Shown here in pieces: positions 37,012 to 64,000 of a stretch of 64,000 nt of DNA (positions are counted from its first letter, which is position 1; each line of letters starts with the position of its first letter). The notes below the pieces were generated by a model, which saw only the letters and a list, made by a program, of their open reading frames with translations, had not been told where the DNA came from and made no database searches. The translations under genes and the position numbers were made by a program. Source of the DNA: Chlorogloea purpurea SAG 13.99 (GTDB lineage: Bacteria > Cyanobacteriota > Cyanobacteriia > Cyanobacteriales > Microcystaceae); assembly GCA_016903695.1 (NCBI GenBank), contig JADQBB010000019.1, forward strand, positions 1 through 64,000, in the 5' to 3' direction.

Positions 37012-37446
37012 ATGCTATTAATTATCAAAAAAGTCCTTTATTTAGAGGGGATTGATGAAATCAAATTCATTCGTACTGCCGTCTTTCAAGAAGAACAAGG
37101 GGTGGAGAAATCCTTAGAATTTGATGGTTTAGACGCAGAATGCACCCATATGTTAGCTTATTGGGATGATAAAGCCGTGGGAACGAGCAGAATTAGAGAA
37201 ATAAGCCAAGAAACAGCAAAAATAGAAAGACTCGCCGTTTTAAAACCATATCGAGGCTTGGGAATCGGTAAAGAGTTGATGAAATTTGCCATCAAAGAAA
37301 TTGAAGGCAACCAAAACTACAGGCAAATCGTCGTAAACGCTCAAGAATATGTGAAACTGTTGTATGAAAAGCTGGGGTTTGAAACGGTGGGCGATCGATT
37401 CGATGAAGCTGGCATACCCCATGTGAAAATGATCAAAAGGCTATGA
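37012..37446 (+). CDS. GNAT family N-acetyltransferase
   Basis: A 144-residue protein with the GNAT fold: GTSRIREISQETAKIERLAVLKPYRGLGIGKELMKFAIKE contains the acetyl-CoA binding R-G-x-G-I-G-x-x-L pattern, and VNAQEYVKLLYEKLGFETVGDRF the C-terminal beta-bulge region. It resembles the ElaA/YjcF group. The substrate is unknown. Its stop overlaps the start of the next gene by 4 nt (ATGA at 37443), so the two are co-translated. Confidence 0.9.
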   Translation: MLLIIKKVLYLEGIDEIKFIRTAVFQEEQGVEKSLEFDGLDAECTHMLAYWDDKAVGTSRIREISQETAKIERLAVLKPYRGLGIGKELMKFAIKEIEGNQNYRQIVVNAQEYVKLLYEKLGFETVGDRFDEAGIPHVKMIKRL

Positions 37447-61779: not shown

Positions 61780-61794
61780 TGAGAATTATTATCT
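61780..61794 (+). promoter_or_regulatory. Candidate Fur box upstream of the iron-uptake operon
   Basis: TGAGAAT-T-ATTATCT matches the 7-1-7 Fur consensus TGATAAT-N-ATTATCA in 12 of 14 positions. It is 52 bp before the ATG of the multicopper oxidase gene, in the divergent region after the DUF58 gene, and overlaps a possible -35 element TTGAGA. This fits repression by Fur when iron is plentiful. Confidence 0.6.
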
Positions 61795-61846
61795 ATTGTT
61801 GCAGTAAAATTATACGGTAGTTGAATTTTATTATCTTTAGCCCCTC

Positions 61847-62842
61847 ATGCCATCGGAAAAATCAGATAACTTGTTTCTTCATCGCCGTCACTTTCTCAAA
61901 TTGTCTTTAGGGACTGGTTTAGGACTCGGCGGTGCCTTTTCCCTGTGGCAGATGTGGCGAGATTCATCGGTTTCGCGGTCGAAGACGATCGCCCCCGTAT
62001 CTCCCCCGCCAACGAGCGCCCCCCCCAACCCGATGACTTTCCTGCGTAATTTCGATTATGGAACTATAAAACAGGAAGGGGGTAAAACCGTCAGAGAATT
62101 TCGGGTGGAGGCTCGTACTTCCCCCCTGCAACTCAACAAAGCAGTTTCTTATATTACGTGGAATCTCAACGGACAAGTACCCGGCCCCACTTTTCGGGCT
62201 ACAGAAGGCGATCGTATCCGAGTTATATTCTACAACCGCGCCGGTCATTCTCATTCTCTGCACTTTCACGGCATACATACCGCCGATGCCGATGGTGTGA
62301 AGCCGGTGCGTAATAACAGCGTTTTCATCTATGAATTCGACGCGAAACCCTACGGCGTACATCTCTACCACTGTCATATCGCCCCTGTGACCCGACACAT
62401 TACTAAAGGGCTATACGGTATGCTTATTATCGATCCGCCCCAACCTAGACCCCCAGCAGACGAGATGGTAATGATCATGGGAGGTTACGACATTAACGAA
62501 GATCGTAAAAACGAACTTTACGCCTTTAACGGTCTACCCGATTATTATATGAATCAACCGATCGCCATCGAGAAAGAGCGTTTGATCCGTCTCTATCTCC
62601 TGAACATGATCGAATACGACCCGGTGGCTACCTTTCACATTCACGCTAACTTTTTTCAAGTCTATCCCACGGGGATGACCCTGACTCCCAGCCACACCAG
62701 CGATGTAATCACCATGGGCACTGCCGAGAGACATATCTTAGAGTTCGCCTATCCCTACACAGGCAAATATATGTTTCACCCCCATCAGGATGACATTGCT
62801 GAGTCAGGTTGTATGGGATTATTCGATGTTAGGGAAACCTAA
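61847..62842 (+). CDS. Tat-exported multicopper oxidase, putative ferroxidase
   Basis: A 331-residue protein. The N-terminus has the twin-arginine motif RRHFLK (residues 13-18) before a hydrophobic stretch, so it should be exported folded. Copper ligands are readable: HFHG (139-142), HCH (175-177), H184, HIH (264-266) and HPH (311-313), forming two cupredoxin domains as in two-domain multicopper oxidases or nitrite-reductase-like enzymes. It follows a Fur box and precedes a lipoprotein and an FTR1-type permease gene, so iron oxidation for uptake is the likely role. Copper-enzyme function is from the family, iron is inferred. Confidence 0.85.
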   Translation: MPSEKSDNLFLHRRHFLKLSLGTGLGLGGAFSLWQMWRDSSVSRSKTIAPVSPPPTSAPPNPMTFLRNFDYGTIKQEGGKTVREFRVEARTSPLQLNKAVSYITWNLNGQVPGPTFRATEGDRIRVIFYNRAGHSHSLHFHGIHTADADGVKPVRNNSVFIYEFDAKPYGVHLYHCHIAPVTRHITKGLYGMLIIDPPQPRPPADEMVMIMGGYDINEDRKNELYAFNGLPDYYMNQPIAIEKERLIRLYLLNMIEYDPVATFHIHANFFQVYPTGMTLTPSHTSDVITMGTAERHILEFAYPYTGKYMFHPHQDDIAESGCMGLFDVRET

Positions 62843-62960
62843 AATTATCAAAAATTATTGATATTATTTCGCAATAATATCTTAAAGTAGAAAGATAGTT
62901 TTTTATCTGTGAGACTCATTGACAAGAAACTATTTGCTCTTATATCTTTCCGTAAAGACC

Positions 62961-63959
62961 ATGCTGAATCGTCGTTTTTGGACGTTTACCACTGCCGTCA
63001 GTCTGACCTTACTGGGTGGCTGCACCCAAAGTGATAAAACCGATACTAGTGTTAATATCTCTCCGTCCCCAGTATCTACAGCCCATAATATGAGCCACGG
63101 GGCGAAGATCAATATTAATAACGCCATACTGTCAGAGTTGGATAAATTAGAAGCCAAATTAGGAATCCCCGCCCTATCCAATCAGATTCAAGCGAGTCGC
63201 CCCTACGGGAGTATTGAAGAATTGGTAACGAAAAAAGTGGTGGCTCAAGACGAATTCGATCGGATAAAAGACATGATCACGATCGAGGATGTAGTCTTAG
63301 TAGGAGAAGCCAGAGACGTAGACTACATAACCAAACTGGGATTGATGAAAGGTCATCTGCTAGTGGCCGACGAACTTTTACAACTGAAAAAACCCCAAGA
63401 AGCCGAACCTCATATCGGTCATCCCGTCGAAGAAATTTATGCTGACGTGGAAGACCAATTAACAGAGAGAAAAGTCCCAGAGTTTAAAACTACTTTAATC
63501 GCCCTGCAAGACCAAGTGAAAGCGGGAGCGAAAGACGCAGCAAAAGTAACGAGCGAGTTTAAAAGTTCCATGCAAGCTGTGGATAATGCGATCGCTGTTC
63601 TGCCCGAATCCCAGCGTCAGTCACCGGAATTTATTTTCAAAGTGATCAACGGGTTATTAGATACCGCTAACTCGGAATACGGGGCCGCCGTATCTAATAA
63701 TAAAATAACGGCGGCGATCGAGTATCAAGACTCGAGAGGCTTCGTCATCTACGCTGATCGATTATATGCAATGATCGCCCCTACCATCAAGAAAAGCGAT
63801 GCCAAAAGTCACGGAGAGATAGAAAAAAATCTCACCGAGTTAAAAAAAGTGTGGCCCGACGTGCAACCGCCTGCGACTCCGGTAAAAACACCCGAAGAAG
63901 TCACCACACTGATTAAAAATATCGAGAAAGCCACTACAGCAATAACAACAAAACCGTGA
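62961..63959 (+). CDS. Lipoprotein with helix-hairpin-helix domain, iron-uptake associated
   Basis: A 332-residue lipoprotein. The signal MLNRRFWTFTTAVSLTLLGGC has lipobox LGGC with Cys21. Residues about 48-105 form a ComEA-like helix-hairpin-helix (ININNAILSELDKLEAKLGIPALSNQI, RPYGSIEELVTKKV). The rest is helical, with a histidine-bearing segment KGHLLVADELLQLKKPQEAEPHIGHPVEEIY that could bind metal. A weak likeness to imelysin/EfeO-type iron proteins is possible but unproven. ATG at 62961 is chosen over a TTG at 62919. Its stop overlaps the FTR1 start by one base. Confidence 0.75.
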   Translation: MLNRRFWTFTTAVSLTLLGGCTQSDKTDTSVNISPSPVSTAHNMSHGAKININNAILSELDKLEAKLGIPALSNQIQASRPYGSIEELVTKKVVAQDEFDRIKDMITIEDVVLVGEARDVDYITKLGLMKGHLLVADELLQLKKPQEAEPHIGHPVEEIYADVEDQLTERKVPEFKTTLIALQDQVKAGAKDAAKVTSEFKSSMQAVDNAIAVLPESQRQSPEFIFKVINGLLDTANSEYGAAVSNNKITAAIEYQDSRGFVIYADRLYAMIAPTIKKSDAKSHGEIEKNLTELKKVWPDVQPPATPVKTPEEVTTLIKNIEKATTAITTKP

Positions 63960-64000
63960 TGGATTATAGTTCAGCTTTACCAACTTTTATCATTACCCTG
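63959..64000 (+). CDS. FTR1 family iron permease (partial, cut by window edge)
   Basis: Only 14 codons are visible: MDYSSALPTFIITL. This matches the N-terminus of FTR1/EfeU-type high-affinity iron permeases, which begin with S-A-L-P-T-F-(V/I)-I-T-L followed by R-E-G-V-E-A. The ATG overlaps the stop of the lipoprotein gene (TGATG), so translation is coupled. Continuation beyond 64000 should show R-E-G-x-E motifs. The assignment rests on a short but distinctive stretch. Confidence 0.7.
   Translation, partial: MDYSSALPTFIITL

Follow-up and report, generated by a model that had tools for sequence, protein, structure and literature searches.

The last genes of the window, by which we mean the whole 64,000-nucleotide stretch of Chlorogloea DNA that was analysed, form a putative iron-uptake operon comprising a multicopper oxidase (MCO), a lipoprotein (LIP) and an FTR1-family permease, preceded by a Fur-type box. 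The features, all coordinates referring to the window unless a contig or locus is named, are as follows:

61780..61794, strand not assigned: Fur-type 7-1-7 palindromic box, 12/14 match to the consensus
61847..62842, + strand: MCO, Tat-exported, two-domain, 331 amino acids (from Pfam, PDB matches and ligand conservation)
62961..63959, + strand: LIP, 332 amino acids, with lipobox Cys21 at 63021-63023
63102..63281, + strand: N-terminal helix-hairpin-helix (HhH) domain of LIP, residues 48-107, PsbU/ComEA-like
63288..63956, + strand: conserved C-terminal domain of LIP, residues 110-332, predicted as two tandem four-helix bundles
63959..64000, + strand: start of the FTR1 gene, which continues past the window to C6:64903

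The first-pass annotation had taken the frame opening at 63959 for an FTR1 gene, and extension beyond position 64000 bears this out. The complete gene (L002:3960-4904, on the same contig as the window) starts with an overlap of one base with the LIP stop and encodes a full permease of 314 amino acids from the ATG that matches PF03239 with 196 bits (cut-off 25.3; E=7e-58) and carries two REGxE motifs, REGVE at residues 15-19 and REGFE at residues 141-145, whose R-E-G-x-E letters are identical in all 17 sequences compared. It is the only FTR1 found by PF03239 search in the Chlorogloea assembly, which is 79% complete, and the operon, read to its end, contains MCO, LIP and FTR1 only.

The oxidase was described at the outset as Tat-exported with all four HXH clusters, and both features are confirmed. 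Cu-oxidase_3 and Cu-oxidase_2 domains are found by Pfam search. In addition to its two cupredoxin domains the protein has four HxH pairs (H139/H141, H175/H177, H264/H266 and H311/H313) and a type-1 Cys; these pairs, the twin arginines R13 and R14 of the RR signal, and H136, C176 and H184 are all invariant in 22 sequences. Comparison with motifs known from multicopper oxidases and from copper nitrite reductases leads us to infer a type-1 copper in domain 1, with H136, C176 and H184 as its ligands and Leu189 in the place expected for the axial residue. The nearest solved structures by sequence are 3gdc (E=3e-84) and 7rab (E=9e-76). Because the copper sites are complete and because of the genes with which it is partnered, the MCO is a predicted ferroxidase that probably oxidises iron.

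LIP, which likely starts at 62961 and stops at 63959, has a lipobox Cys21 that is at least 90% conserved, and an AlphaFold2 model of the full-length protein has a mean pLDDT of 87.8. The first-pass annotation had described it as a ComEA-like HhH domain joined to a histidine-bearing helical region; both elements are seen, but the HhH domain is weak here and optional, the conserved part of the protein being the His/Glu-containing two-bundle domain. HHH_3 is detected in the Chlorogloea protein at E=6e-4, under the curated cut-off, and is matched by 34 of 38 aligned LIP sequences, with structure comparison pointing to PsbU (probability 0.99) and to 2duy (Z 9.2 over 62 residues, rmsd 2.1). Since LIP members without it exist, some with a Gly-Glu-rich linker in its place, the HhH domain is dispensable. 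The LIP relatives at L004, L071 and L073 share this repeat linker (GGEGGEGG), in their N-terminal parts, with a cyanobacterial EfeO-like M75 protein (L085:1183-2223).

Residues 110-332 of LIP match no family in a Pfam search. Conserved positions in this domain are H132, E138, H151, H154, E157, E158, Y160, E164 and E239, together with the run EYQDSRGF (254-261), of which Arg259 varies in one HhH-less member. AlphaFold2 predicts two tandem four-helix bundles (pLDDT 95.5, pTM 0.92), and when the domain is compared by Foldseek with 350,542 PDB chains the top four are EfeM, EfeO (two chains) and Algp7, at E values of 0.03-0.19 that are below significance and TM scores of about 0.4, with unrelated chains from E 0.6. 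According to published work on EfeM (PMC9174327), an HxxE motif and a GEEDRY motif carry its metal site III, which sits between two bundles, and HPVE (154-157) and EYQD (254-257) of LIP are found at comparable places. The modelled likeness to the EfeM/EfeO fold is no more than a lead, since no homology emerges when profiles are compared. In VIA-align many unrelated helical bundles rank above imelysin 3pf0 (Z 9.4, rmsd 3.3, 113 residues), and EfeM and EfeO are absent from the best 50 matches.

A relationship of LIP to EfeO/imelysin, for which the first-pass annotation had proposed a profile search, was not supported by sequence: the Pfam search of LIP gave no PF09375/M75 match and hhalign returned probabilities of 0.6% and 7.6%, as against 94% for two M75 subfamilies used as a positive control. 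The M75 profile matches 2 of the 38 aligned LIP sequences (best E=0.0045), and the best that a profile search of the PDB with LIP yields is an HhH protein (E=0.015), all other matches being weaker. LIP would be a helical protein of a new type, anchored at the surface and probably binding iron.

The Fur box claimed 52 bp before the oxidase is present, TGAGAATTATTATCT at 61780-61794 agreeing with the 7-1-7 consensus TGATAATNATTATCA at 12 of 14 positions and ending 52 bp from the MCO ATG. Because the 64-kb window contains two sites of at least 12/14, with 0.37 expected and two reached in 7 of 100 shuffles, a single such site taken alone is weak evidence; within the 220 bp upstream region it is the top site, equalled in 0 of 100 shuffles. 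Comparison across loci is more informative. A box of at least 11/14 precedes 53% of MCO genes (60 loci) and 10% of 224 control upstreams, an odds ratio of 10 with p=6e-12, a value that, like the other p-values for box enrichment, is optimistic because related loci are not independent. At a threshold of at least 12/14 the proportions are 28% and 2% for the same 60 and 224 upstreams, and the TGAGAAT/ATTCTCA core is found in 25/60 and 17/224, respectively. The published Anabaena FurA 19-mer (PMC4005646) separates the two groups only slightly, with 12.9 matches as against 12.0 (p=3e-7), the top match in the Chlorogloea locus falling outside the 61780-61794 box. The 7-1-7 model has been discussed for Anabaena FurA as for Zur (PMC4005646), and the box type, from its letters, fits Fur, though Zur, PerR or another Fur-family regulator could read it too. 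The other 12/14 Fur-type box of the window lies at 37013-37027.

Adjacency of the trio in related genomes, on which the first-pass annotation had made its reading depend, is indeed what is observed. A LIP scan over 84,980 species genomes gave 65 loci, every one under a cyanobacterial title, and 57 of these, from many cyanobacterial families, have MCO, LIP and FTR1 together, in the order MCO, LIP, FTR1 in 56 of the 57. Several of the remaining loci stop at contig edges; L005 and L018 lack a neighbouring MCO despite adequate upstream sequence, and L067 has no FTR1 at the locus. A survey of 116 genomes sampled evenly across the phylum agrees, with LIP in 26, MCO in 22 and FTR1 in 45. All 22 MCO genomes have LIP (Fisher 5e-20), within 3 kb on the same strand in 20, and 21 of them have FTR1 (Fisher 1e-9). 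In 15 genomes FTR1 lies no more than about 1 kb downstream of an HhH-bearing LIP, a further case being cut by a contig end; in the HhH-less LIP genomes of this sample FTR1 is elsewhere or not found, and the Nostocales loci L064-L066 have an HhH-less LIP with FTR1 nearby. Because FTR1 lies apart from MCO-LIP in five genomes (G027, G052, G064, G077 and G099) and the search gave none in G110, the MCO-LIP pair may not serve FTR1 in every case. MCO and LIP make up the tight core, and FTR1 is a frequent third part. In two genomes without MCO (G048, G112) several of the conserved histidines are no longer present in the LIP relatives. In one genome ferritin and FTR1 persist, but of LIP there is no more than a remnant and MCO is absent (L077:6188-6622; remnant G046:C1:1593803-1594069), which looks like decay of the module.

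The genomic context is one of iron, since ferritin-like, PKHD-hydroxylase and FutA-like genes adjoin elsewhere. A ferritin-like gene (144 residues) lies inside the cluster at 16 of the 65 loci, and HhH-less MCO-LIP pairs have near them a PKHD-type 2-oxoglutarate oxygenase (L071, L073), ferritins (L073), a FutA-like solute-binding protein (L072) and OprB porins (L072, L073). The 144-residue ferritin also adjoins FTR1 in many cyanobacterial genomes that have neither MCO nor LIP, a conserved ferritin-FTR1 pair seen at L093, L094, L095, L097, L100, L102, L105, L108 and L109.

The identity of the FTR1 gene, the adjacency of the trio, the enrichment of the box and the iron-related neighbours together support the initial reading of a putative iron-uptake operon. 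We favour, with a probability of roughly 0.7, ferroxidase-coupled iron import through FTR1 with a new partner lipoprotein, a system that would be iron-responsive and copper-dependent. During iron shortage a Fur-family repressor would leave the box, allowing co-expression of MCO, LIP and FTR1. The MCO, exported in folded form by the Tat route, would oxidise periplasmic Fe2+ to Fe3+ with O2, as its complete copper sites and its partner genes suggest; lipid-anchored LIP may then bind the iron through its conserved His, Glu and Asp residues and pass it to FTR1, whose REGxE motifs would carry Fe3+ over the inner membrane. MCO and LIP would be the invariant functional pair, standing in place of the EfeO/imelysin and haem peroxidase of other FTR1 systems. 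More tentative, and in our estimate somewhat short of an even chance, is the proposal that LIP is the founding member of a new family of iron carriers outside the cytoplasm and forms a physical link between a multicopper ferroxidase and FTR1. The result would be a bacterial device akin to Fet3/Ftr1 in which a third subunit, added for channelling, took over from EfeO/imelysin and the haem peroxidase within FTR1 systems.

Three other explanations, each with less support than iron import, have to be weighed. MCO and LIP might oxidise and sequester periplasmic Fe2+ as a protection against damage, FTR1 or ferritin serving only to store or clear the product; the ferritin-like genes in or beside the cluster and the several lineages that have MCO-LIP with no adjacent FTR1 would fit such a role, which is nonetheless unlikely given that FTR1 belongs to an importer family and that a Fur-type box is enriched before MCO. 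A Fur box usually marks genes of iron starvation, and Fur can also activate. Still less probable is a function in copper tolerance, with the MCO a CueO/CopA-like cuprous oxidase and FTR1 a chance neighbour. Copper is the substrate of many bacterial MCOs, and the CopA and CueO models do score against this one, weakly and far under their cut-offs; however, no copper-export genes were recognised beside MCO in the loci inspected, iron genes adjoin it, and the Fur-type box and the occurrence of FTR1 in nearly every MCO genome of the survey speak against this role as well.

The least likely of the three, by a little, is that the oxidase has some other redox function, like that of a laccase or of copper nitrite reductase, and that the iron genes are co-regulated and no more. 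By sequence the MCO does resemble copper nitrite reductases (9cck, E about 1e-41), a family with which it also has the type-1 copper of domain 1 in common. Eight histidines at a trinuclear cluster are the pattern of multicopper oxidases, whereas the nitrite reductase site has three, and all eight are invariant here, which favours a predicted trinuclear centre that reduces O2 and speaks against assignment as a nitrite reductase.

Import coupled to a ferroxidase has a precedent in yeast Fet3p/Ftr1p, where a multicopper oxidase gene is likewise paired with a REGxE FTR1 permease, and the trio looks like a bacterial counterpart of this iron pump. We take the Leu at the type-1 copper axial position (Leu189) to be common to Fet3p as well. 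The systems differ in that Fet3p is a three-domain, membrane-anchored protein whereas the MCO considered here is two-domain, soluble and Tat-exported, and in the presence here of an extra lipoprotein and of a bacterial operon with a Fur-type box. EfeUOB/EfeUOM of E. coli and Pseudomonas syringae similarly combine FTR1 (EfeU) with an extracytoplasmic two-bundle helical protein, an architecture predicted in LIP, and a secreted redox enzyme; in contrast, our operon has an MCO where the DyP peroxidase EfeB stands, with no DyP gene in the operon, and a LIP without detectable M75 sequence homology. The FTR1-family permease of the FtrABCD system of Brucella and Bordetella is thought to need a ferrous oxidase, FtrB being a cupredoxin, and the oxidase there is unsettled, with no MCO co-expressed (PMC11966278). 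The present operon differs in its full MCO, and no FtrA, FtrB or FtrD is seen in it.

A cyanobacterial FTR1 permease has been characterised previously, Synechocystis cFTR1 (slr0964), a target of IutR1 (PMC11221513) for which a reduction/re-oxidation route has been proposed, as far as the citation of Xu et al. (2016) in PMC7676907 goes. In a tree of 48 FTR1s all 27 operon-linked copies fall in one clade of 32 (99/97), and the FTR1s of L091 and L092 fall in a separate one (100/95), the L091 copy having 44% identity with the trio FTR1. Neither MCO nor LIP lies beside FTR1 at L091 and L092, where the neighbouring genes presumably match the slr0963-slr0966 order of Synechocystis. Because the linked FTR1s are in a clade apart from these two, the trio FTR1 is, by sequence, probably not an orthologue of cFTR1.

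Other FTR1 loci are equipped differently. M75 proteins are found in 9 of the 45 FTR1 genomes with no overlap with MCO (P=0.0015 under independence), and a PF09375 search of the Chlorogloea assembly (G000, 79% complete) gives no M75 gene. Imelysin, a di-haem oxidoreductase and a ferritin of the 144-residue type lie beside FTR1 at L100/L080, and L085 has EfeO, a DyP peroxidase and a PKHD oxygenase of the kind seen at L071 and L073. We therefore see a recurring module around FTR1, in which a periplasmic redox enzyme is accompanied by a helical protein that probably binds metal; MCO plus LIP is one version of it.

Yeast already provides the principle of an oxidase joined to FTR1; a bacterial combination of MCO, LIP and FTR1 was not found in the openly readable literature, nor was any description of an MCO-HhH-FTR1 or MCO-FTR1 operon in cyanobacteria. 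The operon offers a genetically testable candidate, across many cyanobacteria, for an oxidase that feeds a bacterial FTR1, with an uncharacterised LIP family as the likely go-between of MCO and FTR1, and if the reading is true copper supply would be tied to iron uptake in these organisms.

Two further observations concern neighbouring or distant sequence. An alphaproteobacterial plasmid of Indioceanicola profundi (NZ_CP030127.1; L004:5761-8001) encodes a LIP-domain relative whose gene is immediately followed by one for a di-haem peroxidase of the MauG type with a fused cupredoxin domain, no FTR1 being found in the L004 stretch around it. Outside the window a Guanidine-I riboswitch (RF00442, 84.6 bits) lies at L002:5031-5138 (C6:65030-65137), followed by agmatinase-family, hypA-like and hypB-like genes and an ABC transporter, the genes extending to L002:10182; we take this stretch to resemble the cyanobacterial nickel-dependent guanidine hydrolase operon.
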